49,675 bases of DNA from positions 1 to 49,675 of the forward strand of contig JAQBPN010000030.1 of assembly GCA_028287505.1 (NCBI GenBank), in the 5' to 3' direction. The notes beneath the pieces are model-generated. The model searched no databases and was not told the DNA's origin. It saw nothing but the letters and a program-made list of their open reading frames with translations. Origin of the DNA: Fibrobacterota bacterium (GTDB lineage: Bacteria; Fibrobacterota; Fibrobacteria; UBA11236). This document shows positions 1,738 through 18,378 of this stretch, in pieces; positions within the stretch are counted from its first letter, which is position 1; every line of letters starts with the position of its first letter. Both the position numbers and the translations under genes were made by a program.

Positions 1738-3225
1738 CTAAATGCCCCAGGAAAGCTGGGTCATCCAATACCAGTGGTCGTTGGAAACCGTGATTTCATT
1801 ATGATCGAATTGCGGTCCATAGAAGTAGCGGGAGGACACCATGCGCATATGATCGTTGGCCGCCTGCGCGGACAAGGTGATGTAGTTCCCGAACTTCTTC
1901 TGGATGAGCACGCTCCATTTGTAATCATCCTTGGTGGCCAGATCATTCCATTCCGTCTTGGAAGCGATGGAATCGGAAGCGAGGGGGAAAGCGGGAAGGG
2001 GATTGGCATCGTTGGCGATTTGCGAGGTGTTGTTGAGCCAAGGCGTGCTCAGATGCTCCACCTGCACGGAGAACAGGTCCAGCAACTTGAAGCAGGGAAG
2101 GTTGAAGCCTACCATGATGGGCATGCGATCGGTCATCTTGGTATAGAAGATGGGGTAATCCTTGATGCCGAGTATGGCGATTTCCGAATAGAGCTTCAAA
2201 TCCTGAGGTCCGAAGATTTCCGATCCGAGGACCTTCTTCAGATCCAGGCTGGCCCGGCCCATGGCCAGGATCCCGGCGCTCGAGTAGTAGTTGATATCCG
2301 GTTTGTTGTCGACCCTGTCCAGGGCGGTGACCGCCGCGACCGTATCCTGCAGGACTTGCAGGGCCGCGGCCTTGGCGCTGTCCGCGGCGGTATGCTTGTT
2401 GTTGTAGAACTCGACCTGGTGCCCGTAGAAGTTGGTGTTGGTGGTATAGTCCTGTCCGTCCTTGGTGAAGTATCCGTTTTCCAGGGTGTGCTTGGAGGTG
2501 CGCGAGGGGTTGACCGGGATGAGGCGCTTGAAGTTGACGCCCGCGCCCAGGTCCAAAAGCCCGTCCGCGATGCGGTAGCTGACGATTGCGCCCAGGGACC
2601 AGTCATACAAAGGAGCCAGGTTGGTCTCCGTGGTGAGAAGCATATCCGCCTTGAAATTGCCCAGGTTCAGGCTGGTCTTGAGCCCCTGCACGTTGGCAGC
2701 GGCGCTGTTGACCAGCACGTATCCGCCGGTCATGGTATAACCCGGATAAGCCCCGGAACGATACAGGTATTCCCCCAGATCGTTGGCATCCGGGTTGTAC
2801 TTGTACATGAACATGCCCGAACCGACGGTCAGATAGGGGTTTTGCGGATCGCCGAAATGATATTCTGCCACCGCCTTGGTGGGGCCGATGAAGAAGCCTT
2901 TCCGCTGGCTGCCGTAAAAGCCCGGATCCACCTTCTCGGGCTTGCGGTATTGGAAGACGCCGCCCAGGCCGCCGCTCAGGAAGAGCCGGTCATTGATGAC
3001 GGCTTCCTTGGTGATGAAGGCCCCGAAATGATCGATCCAATCGTTGGTCCAGATCTCGCCCACGTTGCCCGGGCCGATCTTGTAGACGCCCTTTTCGAGC
3101 TGTCCGAATTCCTGCAGCGCCCCGATTTCCAGGGGCTTGGACTCTATCTTGGGGCCGTCCTCCGCGAACGACGGCGCCGCGAAGAGACCGATACCACACG
3201 CCAATGCCAAGGATATCTTCTTCAT
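1738..3225 (-). CDS. Outer-membrane beta-barrel protein, paralog 3 of 3
   Basis: 495 residues with a clear signal peptide (MKKISLALACGIGLFAAPSFA). The mature part is rich in aromatic and glycine residues alternating with polar ones, typical of a large porin-like barrel. It ends WYWMTQLSWGI, a beta-signal-like C-terminus. Blocks shared with the two genes upstream include GALQEFG, a DHFGAF-type block, YNPDAN-LGEYL, PLYDWS, DLGAGVNFKRLI and DRMPIMVGFN, so the three arose by tandem duplication. It starts 12 bp after the previous gene, with an AAGGGAAA ribosome site overlapping that gene's stop. I do not recognise a named family; substrate unknown. Confidence 0.75.
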   Translation of the reverse strand: MKKISLALACGIGLFAAPSFAEDGPKIESKPLEIGALQEFGQLEKGVYKIGPGNVGEIWTNDWIDHFGAFITKEAVINDRLFLSGGLGGVFQYRKPEKVDPGFYGSQRKGFFIGPTKAVAEYHFGDPQNPYLTVGSGMFMYKYNPDANDLGEYLYRSGAYPGYTMTGGYVLVNSAAANVQGLKTSLNLGNFKADMLLTTETNLAPLYDWSLGAIVSYRIADGLLDLGAGVNFKRLIPVNPSRTSKHTLENGYFTKDGQDYTTNTNFYGHQVEFYNNKHTAADSAKAAALQVLQDTVAAVTALDRVDNKPDINYYSSAGILAMGRASLDLKKVLGSEIFGPQDLKLYSEIAILGIKDYPIFYTKMTDRMPIMVGFNLPCFKLLDLFSVQVEHLSTPWLNNTSQIANDANPLPAFPLASDSIASKTEWNDLATKDDYKWSVLIQKKFGNYITLSAQAANDHMRMVSSRYFYGPQFDHNEITVSNDHWYWMTQLSWGI

Positions 3226-3237
3226 TGCCGTTTCCCT

Positions 3238-4800
3238 TTAGATATTCCACCCGAGCTGGAACATCCAATACCAGCTCGAGGACTTGTGGAGGACTTCGTC
3301 CGGTTGGAACCGGGAACCGTAGAACCAATCCGTGCCGATGACGCGCATGTGATCGCGGGCGATTTGCCCGTTGAGGGTCAGGCCGGCCAGGATTTTCCGG
3401 CGCAGAAGGATGGACCAGGCGTAATTGTCCTTCTTGGTCAGGTCGTTGAACGCCTTATCGGAGAATACCGCGGTGCCGTTCTCGGGGATGTACGGGATGG
3501 ACCAATTATGCTCTCCCACGGTGTAGGTGTTGTTCAGGTTCGGGGAGTTGTAGTACTCGACCTGCACCGACAGGAGGTCCAGGAGGTGGAAGGTGGGCAG
3601 GTTGAAGCCGGCCATCATGGGCATCCGGTCCGTGATCTTCTCGTAGTATACGGGATAGTTCTCGACGCCGAGGATGGCGATTTCCCCGTACAGGCGCAGG
3701 TCTTCCTTCGAGAACAGCTCCGAGTCGAAGAGCTTCTTGAAATCCACGCTGGCGCGGGCCATGACCATGGTTCCCGCGGGAGTATAATACTTGGCGTCGT
3801 TCACCTTGCCGGTGGTGGCGTCCACCCAGGGGCCGCCCTTTGCCAGGGAATCGACGATGGCCAGGAGCGCCGTGCTTTTCGCCGCATACTGGTCGGCCAG
3901 GACGGAGTCCTGGGCCGTGCCTTTGGCCCGGGTCGAATCCGCCAAGGTGGCCAGGAAATCACCCGGGTTCTTGTAATAGCGGGCTTCGCCGGAGTACCAG
4001 GTCCCGTTCCTTTGGAAGTAGGAGTTCTCCAGCGCCTCCACCGTGGTCCTTTTCTTGTCCACCTGGATGAGCCGCTTGAAGTTCACGCCGGCGCCGAGAT
4101 CCAGAAGCCCGTCCGCGACCTTGTATCCGGCCACTAGGGCCAGGGACCAATCGTAAAGGGGCGGCAGGCCGGTCTCGGTGGAGAGGATGACGTCCACGTT
4201 CAGGTTGCTGGTATGCGCATTGGCCCGGAATCCCTCCAGCACGGTGAACTGATCGCCGATGGCCGTGAGTCCGCCGTTGCCGCCGGTCATGATGAAGGTG
4301 GGATAGGGGCCCGCGCGGAACAGGTATTCCCCGAGGTTGTTGGCGTCCGGGTTGTACTGGTACGGGAACATGCCCCCGCCCACGCTGAAGACCCCGTTGT
4401 CCACCCCGCCGAAATGATACATGGCTTCGGCGACGGAGGGGCCGACATAGAACATCTTGTACTGGCTGCCGCCGAACTCCTCGCCCGTCTTCTCTTCTTT
4501 CGGGAATTCGAAGATGCCGCCCAGACCGCCCTTGAGCACCAGGCGATCGTTGACCGTGGCCTCCTGGACCAGGAAGGACCCGAAATGGTCGACCCACTCC
4601 GCGGCGAATTCCTTCTGGTTGGAAATCAGGTATCCCTTCTGGATCATGCCGAATTCCTGCAGCGCGCCGAAATGCAACGGCGACAACTTGACTTCCATGC
4701 CGTCTTCCGCCCGGGCTGCCCCTGCGAAAACGGCGCCGGCCCAAAGCAGGCTTGCCGCCAACTTCGCCCTCATATTGGCTCCTATCCTTGAATTGGCCAT
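3238..4800 (-). CDS. Outer-membrane beta-barrel protein, paralog 2 of 3
   Basis: 520 residues from ATG 4800, chosen because GAGGAAGG lies 8 nt upstream and the start falls 14 bp after the preceding stop; M10 (4773) is an alternative that would shorten the n-region. A signal peptide (LAASLLWAGAVFAGAARA) precedes a barrel-like sequence. It shares GALQEFGM, WVDHFGSFL, GGLGGIFEF, YNPDANNLGEYLFRAG, PPLYDWSL, DLGAGVNFKRLI and DRMPMMAGFNLP with its neighbours and ends SSSWYWMFQLGWNI. An insert of about 60 residues in the middle differs between the copies and is probably a surface loop. Role probably passive or specific uptake across the outer membrane; substrate unknown. Confidence 0.75.
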   Translation of the reverse strand: MANSRIGANMRAKLAASLLWAGAVFAGAARAEDGMEVKLSPLHFGALQEFGMIQKGYLISNQKEFAAEWVDHFGSFLVQEATVNDRLVLKGGLGGIFEFPKEEKTGEEFGGSQYKMFYVGPSVAEAMYHFGGVDNGVFSVGGGMFPYQYNPDANNLGEYLFRAGPYPTFIMTGGNGGLTAIGDQFTVLEGFRANAHTSNLNVDVILSTETGLPPLYDWSLALVAGYKVADGLLDLGAGVNFKRLIQVDKKRTTVEALENSYFQRNGTWYSGEARYYKNPGDFLATLADSTRAKGTAQDSVLADQYAAKSTALLAIVDSLAKGGPWVDATTGKVNDAKYYTPAGTMVMARASVDFKKLFDSELFSKEDLRLYGEIAILGVENYPVYYEKITDRMPMMAGFNLPTFHLLDLLSVQVEYYNSPNLNNTYTVGEHNWSIPYIPENGTAVFSDKAFNDLTKKDNYAWSILLRRKILAGLTLNGQIARDHMRVIGTDWFYGSRFQPDEVLHKSSSWYWMFQLGWNI

Positions 4801-4814
4801 CGTGCCGACCTTCC

Positions 4815-6293
4815 TCAAATCCCGTAACCGAACTGGAGCATCCAGTACCAGTCGCTGCTGCGGCCCAGAACCTCGACGGGTTCCGGCGCGGTCCAAGTAT
4901 CGATACTGACGGTGCGGAGATGATCCCGGGCCACCTGGGCGGAGATGTAAGATGCGCGGCCGAAAGTCTTTTTGGCCAATATCGACCAGGACAGGTTGTC
5001 ATTCTTGGTGATGTCGCCGTACTCGGTCTTGGACCGGGTCACGTCGCTGCCGTTGGGGGTGGTGGGGACTGCGGAATTGGAACGCACCAGCTCCCAGTAG
5101 GAATTCAGGTTGGGGGAGTTGAAATACTCGGCCTGGATGGAGATGAGGTCGATGAATTTGAATCCGGGGAAGTTGAAGCCCGCCATGATGGGCATGCGTT
5201 CGGTGATCTTTTCGTAATAGAAGGGATAGTTCTGCACGCCCAGGATGGCCGCTTCCGCGTAGAGGCGCAGATCATTGGGGCCGAAGAGCTCCGAGCCGAT
5301 GAGCTTCTTGAAGTCCACGGAGGCGCGCGCCATGGTGATCAGGCCCTGTTGGGTGTAATACTTCGGGTCAATGCCGGCCGAGTCCGGATTGGCGAGCCAG
5401 AGCTTGACGTTGGAGCCTTTCAGGGAATCGGCCGAGGCCAGCGCCTGATAGGTGGCGGCATTGGCGGGATCTTCCGTCATGCGGCGCTTGTAGAAGTTGC
5501 TGCGCTCGTAATAGTAGGCGTCGTACCCCGTATAGGTCTCGCCGTCCTTGGTAAAATACGCGTTGGAAGAAATGTGGGGTGAGGTCCGCGAAGGCTTGAC
5601 CGGGATCATGTGCTTGAAGTTGACGCCCGCGCCCAAATCCACCAGCCCGTCGGCGAACTTGTATCCCACCACGGCGGCGGCGGAGAGATCGTAGAGGGAA
5701 GGCATGGAGGTTTCCGTGATGAGGAAGAAGTCGCTGGTCAGGGCGCCGCGGTTATAGCCGGCCCTCAGGGCCTGCAATTGCACGGAGGTTTTGTTCATGA
5801 ACCAGAGCCCGCCCGAGGTCACGTAAACGGGATAGGTGCCCGAGCGGAACAGGTATTCGCCCAGATTGCTGGCGTCCTCGTTGTATTTATAGTCGAACAT
5901 GCCGAACTGGAATCCAAGGCCCTGTCCATCGCGCGCGGCGGCCTTCCAGCGGATATCGGCCACGGAAGGGCCGATGAAGAAGTTCTTGTACTGGCTGCCG
6001 CCCCATTGGGCCTGGACCACTTCGCGCTTCTGGTATTCGAACACGCCGCCGAGCCCTATGTCGAAGGCCAGGTCATCCCCCGTGTTCACGGTCTGGGCGA
6101 TGTAGGCGCCGAAGTGGTTGACCCACTCGTCGCTGAAGACTTTGTTGTTTCCGTACTGGCCGCTTTGCAGCATGCCGAATTCGGAGAAGCCCCCGAAGGC
6201 CAGCGGTTTGTACACCGGCTTGGAGTCGTCTTCGCCGTATGCGGCCGCCAGCATTCCGGCGAGAGTCAAGGCTACGCCAATCTTATGGACCAT
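4815..6293 (-). CDS. Outer-membrane beta-barrel protein, paralog 1 of 3 (first in operon)
   Basis: 492 residues. ATG 6293 is preferred over an in-frame ATG 45 bp further out because the signal peptide (MVHKIGVALTLAGMLAAAYG) begins there; the ribosome site is weak (GGGGCGTG). The sequence repeats the family blocks FSEFGML, EWVNHFGAY, GGSQYKNFFIGPSVAD, YNEDASNLGEYLFRSG, DLGAGVNFKHMIPV and ERMPIMAGFNFPG, and ends WYWMLQFGYGI. It is the most divergent copy, with RWKAAARDGQGLGF where the others have a YHFG block. It leads a three-gene operon with 12-14 bp gaps. No specific family recognised. Confidence 0.75.
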   Translation of the reverse strand: MVHKIGVALTLAGMLAAAYGEDDSKPVYKPLAFGGFSEFGMLQSGQYGNNKVFSDEWVNHFGAYIAQTVNTGDDLAFDIGLGGVFEYQKREVVQAQWGGSQYKNFFIGPSVADIRWKAAARDGQGLGFQFGMFDYKYNEDASNLGEYLFRSGTYPVYVTSGGLWFMNKTSVQLQALRAGYNRGALTSDFFLITETSMPSLYDLSAAAVVGYKFADGLVDLGAGVNFKHMIPVKPSRTSPHISSNAYFTKDGETYTGYDAYYYERSNFYKRRMTEDPANAATYQALASADSLKGSNVKLWLANPDSAGIDPKYYTQQGLITMARASVDFKKLIGSELFGPNDLRLYAEAAILGVQNYPFYYEKITERMPIMAGFNFPGFKFIDLISIQAEYFNSPNLNSYWELVRSNSAVPTTPNGSDVTRSKTEYGDITKNDNLSWSILAKKTFGRASYISAQVARDHLRTVSIDTWTAPEPVEVLGRSSDWYWMLQFGYGI

Positions 6294-6592
6294 CGTCACG
6301 CCCCGGAAATCGGATCTACCCGAGTTTGAAAGAACCATATCGATACCTTTGGAAAAGTTGTCTTTCCGTTACAAAACTTGCAAGGGCGAATCCCAGGGGA
6401 AACCTGCGTGTTTCCCTCCGTTCCCGGTGTCCGTCCGCTCTTGTCCTTTAAACCATGGCTCGTCGTCAGTATAAACCGGAGATTGGAAGAAAACGGAGAG
6501 GAGCCTTTCGGCGGGGCGAACGCGGCCCAAGCGGCCCGGAACGATCCGGGCGCGTGGAAACCGGGCGCGGCGCCCTGGTCCTTATCCTCTGC
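6294..6592. other. Intergenic region upstream of the barrel operon
   Basis: About 300 bp without a credible gene. It must hold the barrel-operon promoter, but I could not pick a convincing -35/-10 pair. It contains a perfect 7-bp inverted repeat, GGGAAAC (6397-6403) and GTTTCCC (6410-6416), 104 bp before the first barrel start, which could be an operator or the 3' hairpin of the DUF1080 gene. No T-run is present. Confidence 0.4.
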
Positions 6593-7645
6593 TCAGAGGA
6601 TGTTCAATTTCTGGGTCACGGATCCGGAGGCGAGGTCCAGCCTCAGGAGATACAGTCCGGTCTTGGGCAATTCGGCGAAATAAGCTTTGCGGCCGCCTTC
6701 GGAAAGCGAGGCCCGGCTCATGACCTTGCCGTTCAGTCCGATGAGCGATGCGCGCTGCACGGTTTTGTCCGAGAAAGTGGCGGTCAGGGTTCCGGCGGCT
6801 TGGCGCAGGCTGGAGATGAACGCGACCTTGGGACCCACGGCGGCATTGCCGATGGCCGTGGTGCCGCAGGAGGATCCGTCCGTATTGATGGGGCCGAAGC
6901 AGGGATGCGCGGTGGTGATCTTCAGATCCTTGATGATCCACTTGCCGCCATGATCGCCCTGGAGGCCGAGGTAGCCTTCTTCGATATAACCGCTGTTGCG
7001 ATCGCCGACCACTTTATTGGTCAGGCGGTTTTCCGCGTTCCACTTGCTGACGTTGTAGGCTTCCCAGAAAGCGGGGCTGTGGTACTTGTAGCCGACCACC
7101 TTCTTCTCGTTCATCCAATGCTCGACGCTGTCGCCCTTGACGACGATGCGGACGGAGTTCCACTTGTTGGTGGTGAACAGCTGGTAGGTGATGGGATCCG
7201 GCGCGTACAGATCGTAGGCGCTGCCGGGGTTGTCCTTGCCCAGGTTGGTGACGTTGTTGATGGCATATTCCACGCCGGTCTGCCAGGCGCGGTCGCCGGT
7301 CAGAAGGCTGCGGTAGAAAATGCCCTGGTTGTTGTCGATGCGGAAATTCATCCGCAACTCGAAATCCTTATAGGTCTTGACGGACCGGATGTCGGGGGCG
7401 TTGCCGATTCCCATCGTGATGCAATGGCACGTCGCATCCAGGATCCACTTGGAATCCAGATTGGTGTTGGTGGCGTTGCCTTTGACGTAATCCACCCAGT
7501 TGCTTTTGAAGCTGGCCAGGGTCCCGTCGAACAGGAGGCTGTAGCCGTCCGCAACGTCGGCGGGACTGAGAACGTTGTCTTCGGCGCGGGCTTTGCCCAG
7601 CTGAATCGACAACATTGCGGCAGAAATCAGGATCCATTTTTTCAT
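6593..7645 (-). CDS. Secreted DUF1080 (3-keto-disaccharide hydrolase-like) protein with C-terminal sorting-like domain
   Basis: 350 residues. A signal peptide (to about residue 22) is followed by a DUF1080/PF06439 fold typical of concanavalin-like sugar-active proteins: LFDGTLASFKSNW near the start, the FELRMNFRIDNNQGIFYRS block, GVEYAINN, WNSVRIVVKGDSVEHWMN, and a closing GYLGLQGDHGGKWIIKDLKI. After about residue 255 comes a linker and an 80-residue tail ending TGLYLLRLDLASGSVTQKLN, resembling type IX-style C-terminal sorting or anchoring domains. Family knowledge suggests glycan turnover; the substrate is not evident. It is monocistronic, with its own promoter at 7734-7762. Confidence 0.85.
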   Translation of the reverse strand: MKKWILISAAMLSIQLGKARAEDNVLSPADVADGYSLLFDGTLASFKSNWVDYVKGNATNTNLDSKWILDATCHCITMGIGNAPDIRSVKTYKDFELRMNFRIDNNQGIFYRSLLTGDRAWQTGVEYAINNVTNLGKDNPGSAYDLYAPDPITYQLFTTNKWNSVRIVVKGDSVEHWMNEKKVVGYKYHSPAFWEAYNVSKWNAENRLTNKVVGDRNSGYIEEGYLGLQGDHGGKWIIKDLKITTAHPCFGPINTDGSSCGTTAIGNAAVGPKVAFISSLRQAAGTLTATFSDKTVQRASLIGLNGKVMSRASLSEGGRKAYFAELPKTGLYLLRLDLASGSVTQKLNIL

Positions 7646-8035: not shown

Positions 8036-8066
8036 AGAAGCGGTCTTATGGTATGAGACCGCTTCT
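8036..8066 (-). terminator. Terminator hairpin containing the stop codon of the MFS/spermidine-synthase gene
   Basis: AGAAGCGGTCT (8036-8046) pairs perfectly with AGACCGCTTCT (8056-8066) around a 9-nt loop. The stop codon (8065-8067) overlaps the proximal arm. The T-run on the minus strand is short (TTAACC), so efficiency is uncertain, but the perfect 11-bp stem at the gene end is convincing. Confidence 0.6.
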
Positions 8067-11031
8067 AAGGCCCCGCATTCCCGGAGGGAGTGGGCCCGTC
8101 CCCAAAGGCACCGCGGACCTCCTCCAGGCGCAGGCGCGCTTGCCGTCCGACGTAGGAGTTCTCGCCCGCCGATTCCAGGGCCTTCCCATAGAATCGCATG
8201 GCGTTGGCCGGCACCCCGTTGACCAGGCAGACTTCCGCCATGGCCAGGTATACCGCCGCCGAGCCGCCCGATTTCAGGTTGCGGTTGAGCGCCGCCATCT
8301 GGACCACGGAGCAGCGCGTCTTCATTTCCGCATCGTCCAGGAACTCCCAATCGGTGACATGCGCCTGGGAGCAGTAGGCATCCAGGCTCTTGGTGAATTG
8401 TTGGCGTTGGGGCGGCGTGGCCGCCGGCCAATCCATCATGCCCGGAAAGGGTTTGGACACCGAAAGGGCGTATTCGGCGAATTCCAGGCGGCTTTCCGGA
8501 TCGGCGCGCAGGGAATCGCGCAGGGCCCGGGTGGAATCCGACAAGGGAGGGCCCGCGGCGATGGCCGCTTCGATGGCCCGGCTGTCGAAGGTGAAGCGCA
8601 ATCTGGGGGCCGAGAACTCCAGCAAGGGGAGATTGTCGGTGTTGATCGGTCCGGGACCGAATAGCCCGGGCAGGTTTTCCGATTCCAGCAACCGGTAGAA
8701 AAGACGCGGATCTGCGAGGCGGAGGTTCGTGGACCGGGCCAGGGCCTCCCGTTTTTCCGGAGTACCCGCGAGTCCGGGGCGGCCCGTTCCCTTTATGCCC
8801 ACCAGCAGATAATCGCTGGCCGATCCCGGCAAGCGACGATCATCGGGCATGGTCCTGACCAGCATGCCGTTGGGGAATACCTGCGCGAAGGTGCGGCCCA
8901 CCATGGAAAAGGTCTCCCAATCCATCTGGTAGGAGTGCAGGAATTCCACCATCACGCCGCCTTCCTCGAGATGGTCGCGCGCGCGCTGGAAGAACTCCTT
9001 CGTGAACAATTCCGCCAGGCCCGCCATCCAGGGATTGGAGGGCTCGGAGATGATGACATCGTACTTTTCCCGCGACAGCAGAAGATGGGCCTTGGCGTCC
9101 TGCAAGATGAGGTGGGTGCGGGAATCCTCCAACAGCGCCCCGTTCCAGGGTTTGAAGAATCCGCTGGCCTCCGCCACCTGGGGATTGATTTCCAGCACGT
9201 CCAGGCGATCGATATCGTACTTGAGCGCCTCGCCCGCGGTGATGCCGCTGGCCAGGCCGAGCACCATGACCTTTTTGGGATGGGGATGCAGCACCATGGG
9301 AAACTGGCACAACAGCACCTGGGTGAACATGTCCAGGCGCGAGGATGCGTCCGCCTTGCCGCTCACGAACAGACCGTATTCATGGTTTCCCAGCAGGTTG
9401 AGGGTCCGCCATACGGAAGTGAATCCGCCGATTCCGTCCCCATAGAACACCTGCTCTTCCGGAATCAGGACCGGGGACGCGGGATGGCGTCCGAAAAAGG
9501 CGTCCAGCCAGGAGGTGGTTGCGATGGCGGAACCCGGGATGCGGTTGGCCGCCCTTCCCAGGGAGACGCGATCCCAGCTTGGAAAGTTGAGGCACAACGC
9601 GATGGCCAGCGCCGAGGCCGCCACGGACCCCAACAGGCGCCACACCCGTTTTCCTTCCTTGCCCCGGCTCCGCAAAGCCGCGAAGGCCAGCGCCGCGGCG
9701 GCGATCAATTGCACGGCCGCCAGCGCTCCCAGGCTGCGCTCGCTCCCCAGGCGCGGGATCATCAGGAAGCCGGCGATCCAGGCGCCCAGCACTCCGCCGA
9801 AGGTATTGACCGCGTATGCGGTTCCCACGCTCCGGCCCAAACGCTCGCCGGCGCGGGCGGCCAGGCGCATGGTCAATGGAAAGGCCGCGCCCAGGAGGAA
9901 GGTGGGCGCCAGCATGAACGCGAAGAGGAACAGGGATTTCACCGCCAAAGATCCGATGAACCGGTCCTGGAATTGGAAGTCTATTTTCTGGAAGAGGAAC
10001 AGGCTGTTGCCCATGCGCTGGCCGGCCGCCAGCGCCAACAGGGCCGCGCCGCCCTGGGTGACCGCGAGCAGCCAGGCGGGATTGCGCACACGATCGGAAA
10101 TGCGGCCGAAAGCCCAGCCCCCCAGCGCCAATCCCGTGATGAAGACCGCCAGGACCAAGGTGAAGGCATGGGTGGTGGGACCCATGATGAGGGTGAGGAC
10201 CTTGGTCCAGGTGACCTCGTAGGCCATGGCGCAGAACCCGGAAACGGCGAAGACGATCAGGGCGGCGCGGAACCCCGCCTGGGCCGACCCTCCGGCTTCA
10301 GTAACATTCAGGCTACCCTGGCCGCGGTTTCCCTTGTTCCCTCCGGGACCCTTGGCCTTGGCCGGGCCCGCCGCCCGGGAAGCCTCGGCCCGCATTTCCG
10401 GCGCGGCCTCCCGCGGGGCGCGGCCGCCCAGGACCATGCACAATGCGCCCACGGCCCCGTTGAGCGCGGCCGCGATCAGGGTGGTGGCCTTGAGCCCCAG
10501 GGCCGGGAAAAGCCAGAACCCGGCCGTCAGCACGCCCGCCGCCGCCCCTAAGGTGTTGACGGCGTACAGGAAGCTCAAGGGCCCGCCAACCCGGTCCGGT
10601 CCGCGCACGCAATATTTGCCGAGCAGGGGCAGGGTGGCGCCCATGCACAGAACGGGAAGGATGAGGAGCGCCGCGCACAGGGAAAAGACCACGGTGTTGT
10701 AGAGGAAGGGGGATGCGTACCAGTGGGAATACACGGCGGCGAAAACCGGCCGGCACAGGGAGAGCAGCGTCGGCAGGGCCAAGGCATAGAGTCCGATGAA
10801 CAGTTCCAGGACGCCGTAGGCCTGCAGCAGTCGGCCGGGCCGGGCCAGGCGGTCCGCCAGCCGGCCGCCCAAGGCGCCGCCCAATCCCAATCCGCCCATG
10901 AAGACGGAGAGGATGATGCTGACCGCGTAAGGCGATCCGCCGATCACGTGGGTGAGATGGCGCGTCCATAGGGTTTCGTAGACCAGGCTGCCGAAACCGG
11001 AGACGAAGAAGCAGGCTAGGAGAATGTTCAT
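8065..11031 (-). CDS. Fused multi-pass membrane (MFS-like) / spermidine synthase-like protein
   Basis: 988 residues. The N-terminal half is an internally duplicated membrane domain: GFGSLVYETLWTRHL near residue 12 and GFCAMAYEVTWTKVL near residue 265, each followed by a GLxLGG helix and an RxxDR loop. Residues from about 590 form an aminopropyltransferase-type Rossmann domain, with VMVLGLASGITAGEAL as the SAM-binding loop, LDVLEINP, and YDVIISEPSNPWMAG. The classical GGGDG loop reads GLASG, as in many fused membrane homologs, so polyamine synthesis is not certain. The C-terminal 200 residues look TPR-like. It lies 56 bp after the TIM-barrel gene on the same strand and may belong to the eboD arm. 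Confidence 0.85.
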   Translation of the reverse strand: MNILLACFFVSGFGSLVYETLWTRHLTHVIGGSPYAVSIILSVFMGGLGLGGALGGRLADRLARPGRLLQAYGVLELFIGLYALALPTLLSLCRPVFAAVYSHWYASPFLYNTVVFSLCAALLILPVLCMGATLPLLGKYCVRGPDRVGGPLSFLYAVNTLGAAAGVLTAGFWLFPALGLKATTLIAAALNGAVGALCMVLGGRAPREAAPEMRAEASRAAGPAKAKGPGGNKGNRGQGSLNVTEAGGSAQAGFRAALIVFAVSGFCAMAYEVTWTKVLTLIMGPTTHAFTLVLAVFITGLALGGWAFGRISDRVRNPAWLLAVTQGGAALLALAAGQRMGNSLFLFQKIDFQFQDRFIGSLAVKSLFLFAFMLAPTFLLGAAFPLTMRLAARAGERLGRSVGTAYAVNTFGGVLGAWIAGFLMIPRLGSERSLGALAAVQLIAAAALAFAALRSRGKEGKRVWRLLGSVAASALAIALCLNFPSWDRVSLGRAANRIPGSAIATTSWLDAFFGRHPASPVLIPEEQVFYGDGIGGFTSVWRTLNLLGNHEYGLFVSGKADASSRLDMFTQVLLCQFPMVLHPHPKKVMVLGLASGITAGEALKYDIDRLDVLEINPQVAEASGFFKPWNGALLEDSRTHLILQDAKAHLLLSREKYDVIISEPSNPWMAGLAELFTKEFFQRARDHLEEGGVMVEFLHSYQMDWETFSMVGRTFAQVFPNGMLVRTMPDDRRLPGSASDYLLVGIKGTGRPGLAGTPEKREALARSTNLRLADPRLFYRLLESENLPGLFGPGPINTDNLPLLEFSAPRLRFTFDSRAIEAAIAAGPPLSDSTRALRDSLRADPESRLEFAEYALSVSKPFPGMMDWPAATPPQRQQFTKSLDAYCSQAHVTDWEFLDDAEMKTRCSVVQMAALNRNLKSGGSAAVYLAMAEVCLVNGVPANAMRFYGKALESAGENSYVGRQARLRLEEVRGAFGDGPTPSGNAGP

Positions 11032-11087
11032 GGTGTTCCGGGGATCCGCGCGTCCGCGCAGCGGCAGGAAATATACTAAAGGGTATT

Positions 11088-11918
11088 CTAAAGAGCTTTG
11101 GTCAGCACTCCGTGCTTGCGCAGGAATTCCAAAGACGCTTCGATGGCCGAAGCGTAGGTGTCCTTGAACGGGTACAGATCCGGGGTATAATCGCCGCGAT
11201 AGCCGATCTCGTGAAGCGCCGCGAAGATGGCGTCGAAATCCACGTCCCCGTCCCCGTAAAGCTTATGCGCATGCACCCGTCCGCGGATGTCTTCCAGGTG
11301 GACGTTGCGCAGCAAGGGCCCCAGGGAGCGGATGGCCGCGCCGATGTCCTCGCCCACCACCTGGCTGTGGCCCACGTCGAAATTGGCGTATACTTCGCCC
11401 GGAAATCCGCGGCCCAACGCGATCAACTGCTCCGCGGTATTGACGACGTGCTCCGGTTCCTGCTCGATCATGATTTTCACGGACTTGGGTTTGTGCCGCA
11501 CCAGCACGGCCAAAGCGCTCCGGAATCCCTCCAACTGCCGGCCGCGCGCCGCCTCCGAATCCGTAAGGCCCGTGGTCAAAGTCAGGTGCGGGCATTCCAG
11601 GGCGAACGCGATGGCCAGGCATTTTTCGGCCGCATCGGTCTTCTGCGCGCGCGCATGGGGATCCAAGGCGGATAGCCCGGGCCAATGGGGCTTGGGACCC
11701 ATCAGATGCGGCGCACCCATATGCACGTTGCGGAAAACCAGGCCGCGCGATCGGAAGGACTCGCGCACGATTTCCCAATGGCGCGCGTCCCCGGAGCGCC
11801 GCAACATTTCCGCGGTGATGACCAGTTCCACGCCCGTAAAGGGAGTGGGGGTCAGGATGTCGGCGATTTGGGAGAGCGGGAGTCCGTCCGGCAGGGAGCC
11901 GGTGCTATAACAGAGCAT
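11088..11918 (-). CDS. Sugar-phosphate isomerase/epimerase-like TIM-barrel protein in ebo-like cluster
   Basis: 276 residues from ATG 11918. The ORF extends further out, but that part lies inside eboD; ATG 11918 overlaps the eboD stop by 14 bp, implying coupling. The fold is xylose isomerase-like (AP endonuclease 2 family): FTGVELVI near the start, VFRNVHMGAPH, the metal-site strand IMIEQEPEHV, YANFDVGHSQVVGED, LLRNVHLEDIRG and GDGDVDFDAIF. Glu, Asp-His and His-Glu pairs fit a divalent-metal site. Known ebo clusters carry a TatD-type hydrolase (EboB), also a metal TIM barrel; this may fill that slot, but that is inference. Confidence 0.75.
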   Translation of the reverse strand: MLCYSTGSLPDGLPLSQIADILTPTPFTGVELVITAEMLRRSGDARHWEIVRESFRSRGLVFRNVHMGAPHLMGPKPHWPGLSALDPHARAQKTDAAEKCLAIAFALECPHLTLTTGLTDSEAARGRQLEGFRSALAVLVRHKPKSVKIMIEQEPEHVVNTAEQLIALGRGFPGEVYANFDVGHSQVVGEDIGAAIRSLGPLLRNVHLEDIRGRVHAHKLYGDGDVDFDAIFAALHEIGYRGDYTPDLYPFKDTYASAIEASLEFLRKHGVLTKAL

Positions 11919-13131
11919 CCCAGTACTCGAGCAGGACGCGATTGAGCTGGAACTCGCAGACGGGCGTGAGCACGGACTGCGGTTGTCCATCGCCTTGCCG
12001 GCCGTCGGCATCCTGCCGATTGACCTCGCCCACCGCCTTCAGCAGGATGAAGGCCATGCCCTTGCCCACCTTCTTGTTGTCCCGTTGCACGCTCGTCATG
12101 ATCTGCCCCACGGAAATGTCGTTGGGGATGGGCGGGATGCCGCGCAAGCGGCTGAGCAGCAGGGATTGCTTCTTGAGCTCTTCCAGGGGCATGATTCCCA
12201 GCTGGTGGGCCAGCTGCCCGGCGACGTTGATGCCATGGTACACGGCTTCGCCGTGCATGAGCCGGCCTTGCGACAGCCATTCCAGGGCGTGGCCTACGGT
12301 GTGCCCATACTCGAGCATCAGGCCCAGGGATTTCTCCTTGGGGTCCAGGCGCGCGATTTCGAATTTCTGCGCCAGGCTGTTCACCAGCAGGCGCTCCAAT
12401 TGGGGCTCGGAAAAGACGTCCTTTACGGAGAAGAAGCGCAAGGCTTCTTCATAGTGCTCGCCGCCCAGAAGGATGGCGTTCTTGCAATACTCCACCGCCG
12501 CCGCGCGCAATTGGCGCAGGGGTTCCGTGCGGAAGTACCGGGAATCCGCCACCGCGGCCAGGGGCGTGCTGAAAACGCCGAGCCGGTTCTTGCCTCCGGC
12601 GAAGTTGATGCCCTGCTTGTTGGACACGATCACGTCGCTCTGGGCCATCAAGGTGGTGGGTACTTGCAGGAAACGGACGCCGCGATAGACCAGGGACGCG
12701 GCCAGGCCGCCGATGTTGAGCGTAACCCCGCCGCCGAAATTGACGACGATGGAGGACTTGGTAATGCCTCGTTCGAAGAGCTGCTGACACAGGAATTCCA
12801 GGTTGGACATCTTCTTCTCGCCTTCGCCCTCCCCGATCAGGATGATTTCAGGGGCGAAATGCGGCGAAAGGAGCTGCAACAGCTCGGCGCCGTGGAGATG
12901 GAAGACGTGCTGGTCGGAAATGATGAAGACCCGATCCGGCTTGTGCCCCAGCAGCAGTTCCGGGAGGCGATCCACCGCGCCCGCGCCGAACAGGATGGGC
13001 ATGCCGCCGTTGAGGGGTGAGTTCCAGGTTTGAACGGGAGCGGCCCGGTCGGATCGGATCTGAGAACCGGCAGCGAAACGGGAGTCGGCGGCCGGATTGG
13101 CCGCCACCTTGGCTTGGTCGTGCTTTTCCAC
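11905..13131 (-). CDS. eboD: EboD-like sugar phosphate cyclase (3-dehydroquinate synthase superfamily)
   Basis: 408 residues, GTG start. The dehydroquinate synthase fold is recognisable: VFIISDQHV, NFGGGVTLNIGG, RGVRFLQVPTTLMAQSD, then zinc-ligand motifs YGHTVGHALEW and MHGEAVYHG. Two signature positions differ from AroB: the Asp after GGGV is Asn (TLNIGG), and the usual GGK after the AQxD motif is NKQGIN. Together with the adjacent eboE-F-C genes this marks it as the cyclase of an ebo cluster rather than a shikimate enzyme. The C-terminal 40 residues are an extension. The GTG sits 6 nt after a -10 element with no ribosome site, suggesting leaderless translation. Confidence 0.85.
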   Translation of the reverse strand: MEKHDQAKVAANPAADSRFAAGSQIRSDRAAPVQTWNSPLNGGMPILFGAGAVDRLPELLLGHKPDRVFIISDQHVFHLHGAELLQLLSPHFAPEIILIGEGEGEKKMSNLEFLCQQLFERGITKSSIVVNFGGGVTLNIGGLAASLVYRGVRFLQVPTTLMAQSDVIVSNKQGINFAGGKNRLGVFSTPLAAVADSRYFRTEPLRQLRAAAVEYCKNAILLGGEHYEEALRFFSVKDVFSEPQLERLLVNSLAQKFEIARLDPKEKSLGLMLEYGHTVGHALEWLSQGRLMHGEAVYHGINVAGQLAHQLGIMPLEELKKQSLLLSRLRGIPPIPNDISVGQIMTSVQRDNKKVGKGMAFILLKAVGEVNRQDADGRQGDGQPQSVLTPVCEFQLNRVLLEYWDALL

Positions 13132-13137
13132 TAAATT

Positions 13138-13166
13138 AATCTAACCCAAGGCCTTAACTTTGGGAA
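13138..13166 (-). promoter_or_regulatory. Promoter of eboD with probable leaderless start
   Basis: On the minus strand TTCCCA (13166-13161), a 17-bp spacer and TAGATT (13143-13138) are followed after 6 nt by the GTG start at 13131. No Shine-Dalgarno is present. It lies in the 97-bp divergent region between eboD and eboE. Confidence 0.5.
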
Positions 13167-13228
13167 CCGGAACTTTGGCCTGGCAAACCCGGGCGGGGCC
13201 ATCCCTGCCAATCAGAAGGCTATAAAAC

Positions 13229-14467
13229 TTGAAAAACCTGGCCCTAACCTATTGCACCAATGTGCATCCGCTGGGGGATTGGGCCACCTGGAGCGATATA
13301 ATCGGCCGTTTCGGGCCCGCCATCCGCGCCGAACTGGGTTGGAAAACCCAACCCATGGGCCTCTGGTTTCCGGCCGCCTTAATAGAAGAGATGAGCCGGG
13401 ACCCCCAAAACGCCCGGCAAAGGCTCAAATCCCTGCTGTCGGAGAACAATCTTTCCGCCTTCACCTGTAATGCATTCCCTTACGGCAACTTCCATGACGC
13501 CGTGGTCAAGACCAAGGTCTACCGGCCCGATTGGACCACGCCGGAGCGCTTGGCCTATACTGTAGCCTGCGCGCGTCTCCTCTCCAGCCTGGTGCCGGTA
13601 GGCGGGGAAGGATCCGTTTCCACCCTTCCCCTGGGTTGGCGCATCGGCTGGAGCGAGGATCATTCCCGGAAAAGCGCCGAAAACCTGTGCGCCTTCATCC
13701 GCGAGGCCCGGTCCCTCAGGGAAAGCGAAGGCATCTCGCTTCGGCTGGGCCTGGAACCGGAGCCGGGTTGCGCCCTGGAGACGATCGACCAAGTGCTCGC
13801 CTTCTGGGACGCGCATCTGCGCCCGGCGGCGAACCGCGCCGGGGTTTCGCCCGACGACCTGGCGGATTTCTGCGGCATCTGTTACGATACCTGCCATCAG
13901 GCCGTGCAATTCGAGGATGCGGTGGAAGTGCTCGATCGCCTCAGGGCGGCCGGGATCCGCATCGTGAAAATGCAGCTCTCCAGCGCCTTGGAGTTCAAGC
14001 CCGATCCCGATCGGTCCTCGCTGGAGCTGCGCAGGCAGTTCGTGGAGGATCGCTTCCTCCATCAGACCCGCGTCCGGACTCCCGCCGGAATCGTCTCCTT
14101 CGACGATTTGCCGGAAGTACTGGCCGGCTCCGGCACCTTGGCCGCCGGCGGCGCGCCCTCGGGCGCGGGGTCTCCGGCCATAGACCTCTGGGAGCATCCC
14201 TGGCGCGTGCATTTCCATCTGCCCATCGATTCCCGGAGCCTGCTGGATTCCCCCGCCGTCACCACCACCCGGGACGACATGCTCAAAGCCTACCGCCACG
14301 CCGTCGACAAAGGCCTGTGCCGCCACTTCGAAGTGGAAACCTACACCTGGAGCGTGCTGCCCCAGGCCCATCGGCCCAAGGACGACGCCGACCTGGCCCG
14401 CTGCATCGCGCGCGAACTCAGATTCATCGAAGCCCATACGCCCACGGGAACCATACCCAATGCATAA
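13229..14467 (+). CDS. eboE: EboE-like metabolite traffic protein (xylose isomerase-like TIM barrel)
   Basis: 412 residues from a TTG start preceded by AGAAGG with a 9-nt spacing. The opening ALTYCTNVHPLGDWATW matches the family signature (TYCTNxHP near the N-terminus). Later blocks fit a metal TIM barrel: CNAFPYGNFH, LRLGLEPEPGCAL, GICYDTCHQAVQFED and IRIVKMQLSSALE, with Glu, Asp, His and Gln ligands. The C-terminal WEHPWRVHFHLPI and FEVETYTWSVLP are also typical. In cyanobacteria ebo genes are needed to move scytonemin precursors to the periplasm; the chemistry of EboE is unknown. It is divergent from eboD and overlaps eboF by 8 bp. Confidence 0.88.
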   Translation: MKNLALTYCTNVHPLGDWATWSDIIGRFGPAIRAELGWKTQPMGLWFPAALIEEMSRDPQNARQRLKSLLSENNLSAFTCNAFPYGNFHDAVVKTKVYRPDWTTPERLAYTVACARLLSSLVPVGGEGSVSTLPLGWRIGWSEDHSRKSAENLCAFIREARSLRESEGISLRLGLEPEPGCALETIDQVLAFWDAHLRPAANRAGVSPDDLADFCGICYDTCHQAVQFEDAVEVLDRLRAAGIRIVKMQLSSALEFKPDPDRSSLELRRQFVEDRFLHQTRVRTPAGIVSFDDLPEVLAGSGTLAAGGAPSGAGSPAIDLWEHPWRVHFHLPIDSRSLLDSPAVTTTRDDMLKAYRHAVDKGLCRHFEVETYTWSVLPQAHRPKDDADLARCIARELRFIEAHTPTGTIPNA

Positions 14468-15848
14468 GACAGCCGTTCTCAACGTGGTGGGCCTGACGCG
14501 ATCGCTGATCGGCCCGGGCACGCCGCGCATCCGCAAATTCATGCAAGAGGGTTGGAGCGCGCGCCTGCAGGAACCCTTTCCCGCCCTCACCTGTTCCAGC
14601 CAGGCCGCCATGCTTACGGGCGCGCCGCCCGCCGGGAACGGCATCGTGGCCAACGGATGGTATTTCCGCGAGCTGGCGGAAGTGGGATTCTGGAAGCAGA
14701 ATAACGGCCTCATCCAGGGGGAAAAGGTCTACGACAAGCTGAAGCGCGAGCAGCCCGGGTTCACCTGCGCCAAGCTCTTCTGGTGGTACAACATGTACTC
14801 CGGCGCCGACTGGAGCGTGACGCCCCGGCCCCAATACCCCGCCGACGGGCGCAAGATATTCGACGTGTACACGGAACCGGACGAGATCCATGATTATATG
14901 GTGAAGGACTTGGGCCCTTTTCCCTTCTTCGAATTCTGGGGTCCCGGATCGGGCATAGGCTCTTCCAAATGGATCGCCGCCTGCGCCAAGTGGATCTTCG
15001 AGCGCAAGCGCCCCACCCTGAACCTGGTCTATCTGCCGCACCTGGACTATTGCCTGCAGCGCTTCGGGCCGGGCGCGCCGGAGATCCGCAAGGAACTGGA
15101 AGCCATCGATACGGTGGTGGGCGATCTGATCGACTACTACCGGGAGCGCGGCGTCCGCATCATGATCGTTTCCGAGTACGGCATCACCAAGGTTACCCGC
15201 CACACCCATCCCAATCGCATCCTGCGGCGGGCGGGCCTGTTGAAAGTGCGGACGAGCCTGACCTGGGAGCTGCTGGACGCCGGAGCCAGCGCCGCATTCG
15301 CGGTTTCCGATCACCAGATCTGCCACATCTACGTCAAGGACAAGGCCCGCATCGGCGAAGTGGCCGCGCTCTTCGAAAAGGAACCCGGCCAGCGGGCCGT
15401 CCTGACGGGGGACGCCATCGAAAAGGCCGGACTCAGGCACGATCGCAGCGGCGACGTGATCCTGATGGCGGAGCCGGACAACTGGTACACCTATTATTAC
15501 TGGAACGATGACCGCAAGGCACCCGACTTCGCGCGCTGCGTGGACATCCATCGCAAACCCGGATACGATCCGGTGGAACTGTTCCTCGATCCCGCCATCC
15601 GCAACGTCAAGCTCAAGATGGGCCTGACCCTGCTCAAGAAGATGCTGGGCTTCCGCTATTACATGGACGTGATCCCGCTGACTCCGGAGCTGGTCAAGGG
15701 CAGCCACGGCACCCCCGCCGACAATCCGGATGAGGCGCCCCTGGTGATCTCGGACGTGATGGCCCTGGATCCCGGCGCGGAAGCCCTGCCGATGACGGCC
15801 GTGCGCGATTTGATCGAATCCCACGTCACCCGGGAGCCCGGAACTTGA
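14460..15848 (+). CDS. eboF: EboF-like nucleotide pyrophosphatase/phosphodiesterase (alkaline phosphatase superfamily)
   Basis: 462 residues. The N-terminus NVVGLTRSLIGPGTPRI and PALTCSSQAAMLTG (probable Thr nucleophile at about residue 44) define a type I phosphodiesterase. Further metal-site motifs are YLPHLDYCLQRFGP, IVSEYGITKV with a nearby RHTHP, and DIHRKPGYDPVELF. The Asp expected at the first metal site is replaced in the NVVGLT strand, leaving Asn as a possible ligand. No signal peptide is seen, so it should act in the cytosol, on a phosphorylated product perhaps made by EboD. It overlaps eboE by 8 bp and eboC by 4 bp. Confidence 0.85.
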   Translation: MHKTAVLNVVGLTRSLIGPGTPRIRKFMQEGWSARLQEPFPALTCSSQAAMLTGAPPAGNGIVANGWYFRELAEVGFWKQNNGLIQGEKVYDKLKREQPGFTCAKLFWWYNMYSGADWSVTPRPQYPADGRKIFDVYTEPDEIHDYMVKDLGPFPFFEFWGPGSGIGSSKWIAACAKWIFERKRPTLNLVYLPHLDYCLQRFGPGAPEIRKELEAIDTVVGDLIDYYRERGVRIMIVSEYGITKVTRHTHPNRILRRAGLLKVRTSLTWELLDAGASAAFAVSDHQICHIYVKDKARIGEVAALFEKEPGQRAVLTGDAIEKAGLRHDRSGDVILMAEPDNWYTYYYWNDDRKAPDFARCVDIHRKPGYDPVELFLDPAIRNVKLKMGLTLLKKMLGFRYYMDVIPLTPELVKGSHGTPADNPDEAPLVISDVMALDPGAEALPMTAVRDLIESHVTREPGT

Positions 15849-16747
15849 AGCCCAAGGCCTTTCTCGCGCTGGTGCGCATCCCCACCGTCTTCAGTTCCAT
15901 GTCCAACGCCTACGCCGGCTATTTCATCGGAGGCGGACGCGATCTTTCGCCCCGCCTGGTGGAGGGCATTCTGGCCGCGGCCCTGTTCATCATGGCCGGC
16001 ATGGCTTTGAACGACGTGGCCGACAAGGACGTGGACGCCCGCGAGCGCCCCACCCGTCCCATTCCCTCCGGAGCCATTCCCCTGGGCCAGGCCTGGGCCG
16101 CCAGCCTGGCCATGATGGGGCTGGGGCTGGCGCTGCTGTGGTTGGCGAATCCCGTCTCCACCGCCGTGGGAGCCGCATTGTGCCTTTGCATCTTCGCCTA
16201 TAACTTTTTGCTGAAGGGCACGGCGGTCGGTCCCGCCGCCATGGGATTGTGCCGGGCGTTGAATCTTCTCACCGGCGTCTCCCTCACCTGGTCCGGGTTC
16301 CCGGGCCCGGCGGCCTTTCCCAACGCCTTTCCCAACGCCATATGGCTGGCGCTCTTTTCCCTGTGGGCGTATATCGCGCTGGTGACTTTCCTGGCGCGGG
16401 ACGAAGTGGGCGGCAATTCGCGCCGGCGATCCATCCTGTTCCTCTGCGGCCTCGGCCTATGGTTCATCGGCTGGCCTACCGTGGCGCTGGCCTGGTTCCG
16501 CGCCCAGCCCTTGATGGCCCTGGCCTGGCTGGCGCTGGCCATGTTCCTGCGCGGACCCCTGCGCAACCTGGCCGCCGAACCCTCGCCCAAGCATACCGGC
16601 CAGATGGTGGGGGGCATGCTGCGGCTGGTGCCCTTGGTGGACGTGATCGCCATGCTGGCCAATCAGGTGCCGCCGGAGTATGCGTTGGCGGGAGCCTTGT
16701 GGATCGTGCCCGCCTACGCGGTGGGCAAGTGGTTCTATAGCACCTGA
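15845..16747 (+). CDS. eboC: EboC-like UbiA-family prenyltransferase
   Basis: 300 residues with seven to nine hydrophobic helices. The catalytic Asp-rich motif begins at Asn56 (NDVADKDVD) and runs into RPTRPIPSG, the UbiA signature for prenyl diphosphate and Mg2+. A degenerate second motif occurs near residue 180 (ARDEVGGNSRRR). The start is TTG overlapping the eboF stop (TTGA), so translation is coupled. Known role of the family: transfer of an isoprenoid chain to a polar acceptor in the membrane; in ebo clusters the acceptor is unknown. It overlaps the convergent acetyltransferase gene by 13 bp at the 3' end. Confidence 0.88.
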   Translation: MKPKAFLALVRIPTVFSSMSNAYAGYFIGGGRDLSPRLVEGILAAALFIMAGMALNDVADKDVDARERPTRPIPSGAIPLGQAWAASLAMMGLGLALLWLANPVSTAVGAALCLCIFAYNFLLKGTAVGPAAMGLCRALNLLTGVSLTWSGFPGPAAFPNAFPNAIWLALFSLWAYIALVTFLARDEVGGNSRRRSILFLCGLGLWFIGWPTVALAWFRAQPLMALAWLALAMFLRGPLRNLAAEPSPKHTGQMVGGMLRLVPLVDVIAMLANQVPPEYALAGALWIVPAYAVGKWFYST

Positions 16748-17253
16748 ATCCTGGCGTAGAGCAGCTCATCCGCCACCTGGCCGTCCTTGATCGCGCTGCA
16801 ACGCATGCGCCCTTCCAGGACATAGCCGGCTTTTTCCAGCACGCGCATGGATGCGGGATTCCAGTGCAATACCTGCGCGTACAGGCGCCGCAGCTTGAAT
16901 GCCTCGAAGGCGAAGTCGGAAAAAGCGCTCAGCGCCGCGGTCATGATGCCTTGGCCCCAAAAGGGCTCTCCCAGCCAATAACCGATTTCGGCGGTGCCCT
17001 GGTGCACGTCTTCCTGGAGCAGGATCCCGATGCCGCCCGCGAGAGCGCCGTCCCAGGCGATGGCCAGATGGGCGATAGGCGACTGCCGGTTGACGCCGCG
17101 CACCCATTCCCTGGCATCGCCCTTGGTATAGGGATTGGGAAAGCGGTCGCGCAGATTGCGCCAGACGTTCCGGTTGTCGGCCAGGCTCGCCAGGTCCGGG
17201 ACATCCGCGAGAGTCCAAGGGCGGATCTCCCCGCCGGCAAATGCGATCTTCAT
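16735..17253 (-). CDS. GNAT acetyltransferase (RimJ/RimL type)
   Basis: 172 residues from ATG 17253; a longer in-frame start would add a 32-residue hydrophobic leader unlike the family. The fold is GNAT: IRPWTLADVPDLASLADN at the start, AIAWDGALAGGIGI, the TAEIGYWLGEPFWGQGIMTAAL acetyl-CoA region, LRRLYAQVLHWNPASMRVLEKAGY, and GRMRCSAIKDG. This pattern is typical of enzymes acetylating N-termini of ribosomal proteins or small amines. The substrate is unknown. The 3' end overlaps eboC tail-to-tail. Confidence 0.88.
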   Translation of the reverse strand: MKIAFAGGEIRPWTLADVPDLASLADNRNVWRNLRDRFPNPYTKGDAREWVRGVNRQSPIAHLAIAWDGALAGGIGILLQEDVHQGTAEIGYWLGEPFWGQGIMTAALSAFSDFAFEAFKLRRLYAQVLHWNPASMRVLEKAGYVLEGRMRCSAIKDGQVADELLYARIQVL

Positions 17254-17508
17254 GGGCACCCAAACATAAAAATAGCCTCTCCAACATCCCAAACTCCACG
17301 ACAGAAAGCCGAACCCGGGCGCGAAGACGGAAAGATGGATCCGGAGCAAGCCCGGATAAGAGCCGGATATGGGCGTTTTTGAAAAGACTGCGTGACCACG
17401 GTCGCCTTGTCACGGAGGAGGTGGAACATAAAACGCGGAAATCATAATCAGTGCTAAAGGTTTCAAAACCCCCTTCCGAAAATAAGTGTGGAACAGGGAG
17501 GACATCAC

Positions 17509-18378
17509 ATGAACACGCTCAAATCGAAATCGGTAAAGATTCTCATCGGGTTGCTCGCGCCCGCTTTCTTCGCGAACTGCGGCAGCTCCCCCACTTCGGT
17601 GGCGGACAGGCAGCCCGAACGGAATGAAACGGACGCCACGGTGAATTCCACCGTTATCCTCGGCAAAGTGGGAGTGCTCGGCAAGACCTCCGCCATCACC
17701 TTGTCCAAGCTGGTGCTCACGGCCGTTTCCAGCGCCACCCCTCCCGATACCGTCCGCGACACGTCCGCCGTGAGCGGTAACGCCCAGGTTTCCGTGCTGC
17801 GCGTCCTGACCCTGGCCCCCTTGCGCAACTGGGTCGTCAGCGCCAAGTCCCTGGACGCGAAGGATTCCGTGATCCACTCCGGATCCAGCGCCTCCTTCTT
17901 CGTCAAGCCCGCGGATACCGCCGACGTGAGCCTCAACCTCACCTCCCGTTTCGCCATGTACGAAGCCCGATTCAATACCGTCCCCGACAGCATCAGCTCC
18001 ACCTTGCCCGGAACCGGCAAGGACAAATTGAACCTGAACCGCGTGGTCCTGCTGGTGGACGGCGTCATCAAGGCCGATTCCTCTCTGCCCGCGGGAAGCT
18101 ATTTCTCCGCCAACCAGAGCGTGAACGTGTTCTGGGATTACATCACCCCCGGCTCCCACACCGTGACCCTGGAAGCCTACGGCGCGCTGCATGCCTACTC
18201 CGGCAAGCTCTACAGCGGCGCGTCCACCTTCACGGTGACCGCCGGCAACGACGACACCCGCTCCATCACGCTCGACTGGGTGGGCCCCACCACCGGCACC
18301 GGCAAGCTGACGGTGACGCTGGGCAAGGTGGGCAAGGTCGTCATCAACGGCGGTCTCCCCGGCACCGTCATCCACTGA
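17509..18378 (+). CDS. Orphan exported (probable lipo-) protein
   Basis: 289 residues. ATG 17509 is chosen because GGGAGG lies about 7 nt upstream; an in-frame GTG at 17488 has no such site. The N-terminus (SKSVKILIGLLAPAFFANCGSS) is a signal sequence ending at a Cys, but Asn at -1 makes the lipobox atypical. The rest is Ser/Thr/Val rich and predicted beta, with two near repeats of LGKVG (residues about 51-62 and 275-282), suggesting Ig-like domains. No function can be assigned. It is followed by a strong terminator. Confidence 0.7.
   Translation: MNTLKSKSVKILIGLLAPAFFANCGSSPTSVADRQPERNETDATVNSTVILGKVGVLGKTSAITLSKLVLTAVSSATPPDTVRDTSAVSGNAQVSVLRVLTLAPLRNWVVSAKSLDAKDSVIHSGSSASFFVKPADTADVSLNLTSRFAMYEARFNTVPDSISSTLPGTGKDKLNLNRVVLLVDGVIKADSSLPAGSYFSANQSVNVFWDYITPGSHTVTLEAYGALHAYSGKLYSGASTFTVTAGNDDTRSITLDWVGPTTGTGKLTVTLGKVGKVVINGGLPGTVIH

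Follow-up and report, generated by a model that had tools for sequence, protein, structure and literature searches.

We analysed a 49,675-nucleotide stretch of DNA from a Fibrobacterota bacterium (GenBank assembly GCA_028287505.1, contig JAQBPN010000030.1, positions 1 to 49,675; hereafter the window), corresponding to contig C95 in an assembly with a size of 6.07 Mb and a completeness of 98.7%. The window carries eboE, eboF and a gene for an EboC-like UbiA prenyltransferase, divergent from genes for a sugar phosphate cyclase and a xylose-isomerase-like TIM barrel. On balance, we favour the view that the window holds the principal locus of an ebo system divided between two places, and that a cyclase of the 2-deoxy-scyllo-inosose synthase (DOIS) type here takes the place of the canonical EboD and works with a dedicated TIM-barrel isomerase, epimerase or dehydratase. 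The cyclase is DOIS-type and not EboD, the TIM barrel belongs genuinely with the ebo genes, and the ebo system of this bacterial family is complete but divided over two loci. No report of a DOIS-type cyclase within an ebo cluster was found in literature searches, the coverage of which left out most subscription journals.

Comparisons were made with the genomes of the window's family (n = 10, G000 to G009, G000 being the window's own genome), six of which belong to its genus, and with G010, from another family of the same order. EboE was present in all ten family genomes and in G010; 50 further genomes from the class had none. The closest named relatives by EboE were Fibrobacterota metagenome assemblies (L014–L017, 56–80% identical).

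The cyclase in the eboD slot is of the DOIS type

The cyclase has the dehydroquinate synthase (DHQS) fold (PF01761, 97.0 bits; PF24621, 78.0 bits), in agreement with a first-pass annotation of this DNA, which had further named it eboD. Structure matches, trees, active-site positions and a fold search all contradict that name. On the NF004852/PRK06203 model, which has a cut-off of 333 bits, the protein scored 134 bits and a Maribacter EboD 557 bits. It also fell below the cut-offs of the AroB equivalog (229.5 vs 305 bits) and of P_lya_rel_AroB. Its best solved relative was the DOIS BtrC (156.6 bits), followed by DHQS at no more than 139.9 bits. Maribacter EboD, searched against solved structures, favoured DHQS and placed BtrC second to last (82.6 bits).

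In a maximum-likelihood tree, nine Fibrobacterota cyclases grouped with DOIS (support 100/99, or 100/100 without two long rows), and the EboD sequences formed a separate clade (100/100). An approximately unbiased (AU) test rejected a forced grouping of the Fibrobacterota cyclases with EboD (p-AU 0.0019). Identification of the protein as EboD was rejected on these trees and this test. Identification as the housekeeping AroB was rejected as well, since an ordinary AroB is encoded elsewhere in the genome (contig C16, 361.8 bits). Besides these two, the genome yielded no third member of the DHQS family that could be EboD.

At six positions (N139, S170, Q173, N218, E274 and N352) the nine Fibrobacterota cyclases and the five DOIS-type sequences all carry the same residues; these were absent from each of 10 sequences of the DHQS, AroB or aminoDHQS type and each of 11 EboD sequences. 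The cyclase has G270 and E274 where DHQS has arginine and asparagine, residues that contact the substrate in DHQS structures. E274 aligns with BtrC E243; BtrC E235 aligns with E266, a glutamate in every group compared. An AlphaFold model of the cyclase (predicted local distance difference test, pLDDT, 81; weak at residues 1–29, 171–183 and 375–383) matched two DOIS structures, 2gru and 2d2x, better than any DHQS.

The TIM barrel and the divided gene set

The genes on the other arm are those of an ebo-type cluster, and the cluster is split, as the first-pass annotation had recognised on both counts. EboE scored 372 bits on NF035939, above the curated cut-off of 250, and is encoded by a single gene in the genome. 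The adjoining EboF (PF01663, 203.5 bits) shows 69–88% identity within the family and 46–54% to its counterparts in Bacteroidota and Actinomycetota. Membership of the UbiA superfamily is certain for the third protein (PF01040, 66.5 bits), the gene of which directly follows eboF in G001, G002, G004 and G005, lies about 8 kb away in G003, and is on a separate contig from eboF in G006 and G007. Separately, seven surveyed loci (L018, L024, L032, L037, L042, L043 and L046), six of them from Planctomycetota, had EboE but no second ebo gene within the stretch retrieved; EboE of L018 is 53% identical to that of the window and may reflect transfer or misbinning.

The TIM barrel (PF01261, 79.3 bits) probably begins at position 11918, giving 276 residues, and not at 12011, because the corresponding start in its relatives in L014, L015, L017 and L020 gives an overlap of 14 bases with the 3' end of the cyclase gene. 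The coupling of the two genes claimed by the first-pass annotation is borne out by this overlap and by their adjacency in 8 of the 10 family genomes. In the other two, contigs are interrupted at the locus: the TIM-barrel and cyclase genes lie at contig ends in G005, and in G007 the cyclase gene itself is cut by a contig end and no TIM-barrel gene was found.

The same protein family recurs in actinomycete ebo clusters, fused to EboA or preceding it; such fusions were mentioned as unpublished data in PMC5133447. There the cyclase slot is occupied by a protein resembling myo-inositol-1-phosphate synthase (INO1-like; PF07994, 173 bits). A first TIM-barrel tree had outgroups too poor to establish orthology, and whole-genome best-match tests were therefore carried out in six actinomycetes. 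In five of them the TIM-barrel query scored highest at the known ebo locus; in G062, the remaining one, an additional ebo cluster (L169) outscored the known one by 2 bits and left it in second place. An extra match in G061 also fell in a second ebo cluster (L168), and one weaker further match was seen at G064:C1. L168 and L169 each encode an INO1-like protein, EboC, TIM barrel, EboA, EboB, EboE and EboF; two actinomycete genomes thus carry a second full ebo cluster, TIM-EboA included. The model of the TIM barrel is of high quality (pLDDT 94.8) and resolves the enzyme class only, because its nearest folds, L-xylulose-5-phosphate and ketose 3-epimerases with UlaE epimerase the closest, are about 17% identical.

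These observations bear on whether the cyclase and TIM barrel might form a separate cyclitol or aminocyclitol pathway that abuts the ebo arm by chance. Such an arrangement would suit the divergent orientation and the place of DOIS in aminoglycoside biosynthesis. However, the cyclase/EboE junction is kept in 10 of 10 family genomes, actinomycete ebo clusters contain a related TIM barrel, in some cases as a fusion with EboA, and the window proteins scanned revealed no aminotransferase, amidinotransferase or glycosyltransferase beside the cluster. We regard a chance neighbourhood as improbable.

The first-pass annotation had not seen eboA or a TatD-type eboB, both of which lie outside the window, on contig C103. 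A search of the genome with the EboA domain model gave a single strong match (C103:16222-16638, 161.6 bits, cut-off 50), adjoined by the genome's second TatD-type match, EboB. The pair was found in all ten family genomes (the EboB of G005 being cut by a contig end), so that loss of the two genes was rejected and the set is split rather than incomplete. Rearranged and dispersed ebo genes have been described before (PMC5133447). A GntR/LacI-type regulator gene (L109 12381-14057) is divergent from the eboA-eboB pair on C103, and relatives of it stand beside EboA in G004 and G005; it is a candidate regulator.

In a survey of 90 loci, in which some Fibrobacterota loci represent one genome counted twice, 45 had a canonical EboD and none of these had the TIM barrel. 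The TIM barrel occurred with an INO1-like protein in 15 loci, with a DOIS-type cyclase in 11 (the same genome included twice in some cases) and without a cyclase found in three. A contrast within the order is offered by G010: its cluster has canonical EboD and lacks the TIM barrel, the EboA domain model found no EboA in it, and EboC is encoded on a different contig. The order thus contains two ebo types.

Layout of the locus and neighbouring genes

The six open genes indicated by the first-pass annotation are present, arranged in two divergent arms (Table 1). The intergenic region between the arms is 97 bases long and contains the AT-rich element ACTAAATTAATCTAA, which is largely conserved in five members of the genus and is possibly a shared promoter or operator of both arms. 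Consensus promoter and terminator scans returned nothing at the divergent promoter.

Table 1. Coordinates of the ebo genes, the adjoining features and the cluster of G010
Feature	Sequence	Position	Strand	Basis or remark
eboE, TIM-barrel 'metabolite traffic protein'	window	13229..14467	+	NF035939; TTG start; TYCTNVHP near N terminus
eboF, type I phosphodiesterase/nucleotide pyrophosphatase	window	14460..15848	+	PF01663; 8-base overlap with eboE
eboC-like UbiA prenyltransferase	window	15845..16747	+	PF01040; 4-base overlap with eboF
DOIS-type sugar phosphate cyclase in eboD slot	window	11905..13131	-	structures, trees, residues, AlphaFold model
xylose-isomerase-like TIM barrel, 276 aa	window	11088..11918	-	PF01261; 14-base overlap with cyclase gene
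fused MFS/spermidine-synthase-like membrane protein, 988 aa	window	8065..11031	-	NF037959; neighbour gene
AT-rich element ACTAAATTAATCTAA	window	13130..13144	.	divergent intergenic region; sequence conservation
EboA	L109	11030-11875		EboA domain model
EboB	L109	10093-11028		TatD-type match adjoining EboA
canonical ebo cluster of G010	L103	5100-11728		EboB, EboF, EboD, EboE

The 988-residue protein combining major facilitator superfamily (MFS) and spermidine-synthase-like parts is indeed present (NF037959, 151.5 bits, cut-off 40), and its gene lies 56 bases downstream of the TIM-barrel gene on the same strand. The first-pass annotation had drawn a reduced ebo cluster, without eboA and eboB, whose metabolite would receive an aminopropyl group from this protein. 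Apart from the position of the gene and its match to NF037959, the evidence runs the other way. The genome does have eboA and eboB. Among the six genus genomes the gene stands at the locus only in G000 and G004 (49% identical); it is absent from three and lies elsewhere, 32% identical, in a fourth (G002). No homologue was found in G001, G003, G005, G006 or G007. The protein is under every aminopropyltransferase equivalog cut-off (NF002956, 148.6 vs 472 bits), and in an alignment with Thermotoga spermidine synthase GGGDGG is replaced by GLASGI and IDSTDP by SEPSNP, with loss of the catalytic aspartates. In spermidine synthase these residues bind decarboxylated S-adenosylmethionine (AdoMet) and catalyse the transfer. 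A search for AdoMet decarboxylase (PF02675, speD) was negative in this genome and positive in 8 of 14 control genomes. An aminopropyl step is unlikely because the locus is not conserved, the catalytic residues are replaced and the decarboxylase was not found; the polyamine idea was rejected on synteny, residues and the missing speD, and the gene is probably outside the pathway. As a whole, the reduced cluster with an aminopropyl step retains almost no credibility. Of the links it proposed, the one between the TIM barrel and the ebo genes is conserved in relatives and in actinomycetes, whereas eboA and eboB were found elsewhere in the genome and the spermidine-synthase-like gene has no conserved tie to the cluster.

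Further genes were noted in the window. Beside eboC, a GNAT acetyltransferase gene (16735-17349, minus strand) has the same place in G004 and G005, and a gene for an uncharacterised protein (17488-18378, plus strand) has the same place in G004, G005 and also G002. On the minus strand, there are three adjacent open reading frames of about 500 codons (1738-3225, 3238-4896 and 4815-6338, within 1738-6338); at least the latter two have long stretches in common (e.g., NYPxYYEKITxRMPxMAGFN) and resemble tandem outer-membrane-type paralogues, and none of the three gave a Pfam match. The protein encoded at 6593-7645, minus strand, has a 3-keto-disaccharide hydrolase domain (PF06439) and a weak match to a type IX secretion sorting tail (19.2 bits, cut-off 23).

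Proposed pathway and relation to known systems

We infer the substrate, products and chemistry of the pathway from protein families, fold and active-site residues. By its ancestry and active-site letters, the cyclase would convert a sugar phosphate, most likely glucose-6-phosphate, to an inosose such as 2-deoxy-scyllo-inosose. Glucose-6-phosphate is suggested as the substrate that DOIS and INO1-type enzymes share. Judging by its fold, the TIM barrel, whose gene is translationally coupled to that of the cyclase, may then isomerise, epimerise or dehydrate the ring. Family membership and published work on other ebo clusters suggest that EboE and EboB would process the ring, the UbiA enzyme would add a prenyl group, EboF would remove a phosphate or pyrophosphate-linked group, and EboA would organise the proteins. 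The predicted product is a prenylated cyclitol, which may be the lipid-like agent through which ebo of cyanobacteria brings about the reported export of metabolites; a role in metabolite traffic or scytonemin-type export has been described for Nostoc punctiforme (PMC6282210). An isoprenoid-cyclitol made from sedoheptulose 7-phosphate was proposed for ebo in 2016 (PMC5133447); the present variant argues for entry by glucose-6-phosphate, at least in Fibrobacterota and actinomycetes. We tentatively extend this to a general scheme, possible but less secure than the replacement of EboD itself, in which a six-carbon cyclitol is made from glucose-6-phosphate, the ring step being filled in three ways (EboD, DOIS-type plus TIM barrel, or INO1-like plus TIM barrel), all feeding EboA, B, C, E and F towards a prenylated cyclitol.

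A non-orthologous replacement in an otherwise ordinary ebo pathway is the strongest competitor: the cyclase may descend from a DOIS-like ancestor and yet make the same product as EboD (e.g., a C7 cyclitol), with the TIM barrel as an accessory. EboA, B, C, E and F are common to canonical clusters, which suggests a common end product. However, the active-site letters found only in DOIS are invariant in nine genomes, and the actinomycete slot holds a protein like myo-inositol-phosphate synthase, a family that uses glucose-6-phosphate. Identity of product is thus unlikely, if less so than a chance neighbourhood of two pathways.

Several points weigh against a DOIS-type replacement within an ebo system. 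The cyclase shares only about 27% identity with characterised DOIS, and the cyclases of Fibrobacterota sit on a long stem branch of their own; because of both, substrate and product may differ from those of DOIS. The trees also gave long-branch warnings. The top two matches listed among plasmid records (153 bits each) are labelled 2-deoxy-scyllo-inosose synthase by annotation, not by assay, and among the DOIS compared only BtrC is a solved one. TIM-barrel identity between Fibrobacterota and actinomycetes is 24–30%. Exclusion between TIM barrel and EboD is mostly a contrast between phyla, with few independent events. The UbiA protein is under the cut-offs of EboC (NF035940, 128.8/250) and SCO3242 (138/260) and about equally distant from both. 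Almost all Fibrobacterota evidence comes from draft or metagenome assemblies.

The system shares the EboA, B, E and F families, an EboC-like UbiA protein and a DHQS-fold cyclase with the ebo ABCDEF type of Bacteroidota and Cyanobacteria (PMC5133447, PMC6282210). It differs in its two loci, its divergent arms, a DOIS-type cyclase for EboD and an extra TIM barrel beside the cyclase. Actinomycete ebo (Saccharothrix, Streptomyces, Catellatospora; SCO3242-type UbiA) has the same TIM-barrel family, EboA-B-E-F and no canonical EboD, but an INO1-like protein in the cyclase slot, a TIM barrel fused to or beside EboA, and one collinear cluster. BtrC of butirosin biosynthesis (2gru/2d2x) is in the sister clade, shares the six signature positions and is the best fold match, a likeness drawn from sequence and model; the window's cyclase stands in an ebo context rather than in aminoglycoside biosynthesis. 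The neighbouring MFS gene has the domain layout of NF037959 but, unlike spermidine synthases, is without the residues for aminopropyl transfer, and it is not conserved at the locus.

What is new here is the replacement of the cyclase and its TIM-barrel partner in a real ebo system; the missing eboA and eboB and the aminopropyl step fall away. Clusters of ebo genes occur widely, reaching even some algal plastids, and export of the scytonemin precursor depends on them; the literature covered establishes neither the substrate nor the product. Kinship with DOIS, which starts aminoglycoside antibiotics from glucose-6-phosphate, is a concrete clue to the ebo product. Annotations of 'eboD' or 'aroB' in such clusters can be wrong. 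If the slot is indeed open to a DOIS-type or an INO1-like enzyme, each with the same TIM partner, the likely input of the pathway would narrow to glucose-6-phosphate, and a soluble two-enzyme assay would become possible.

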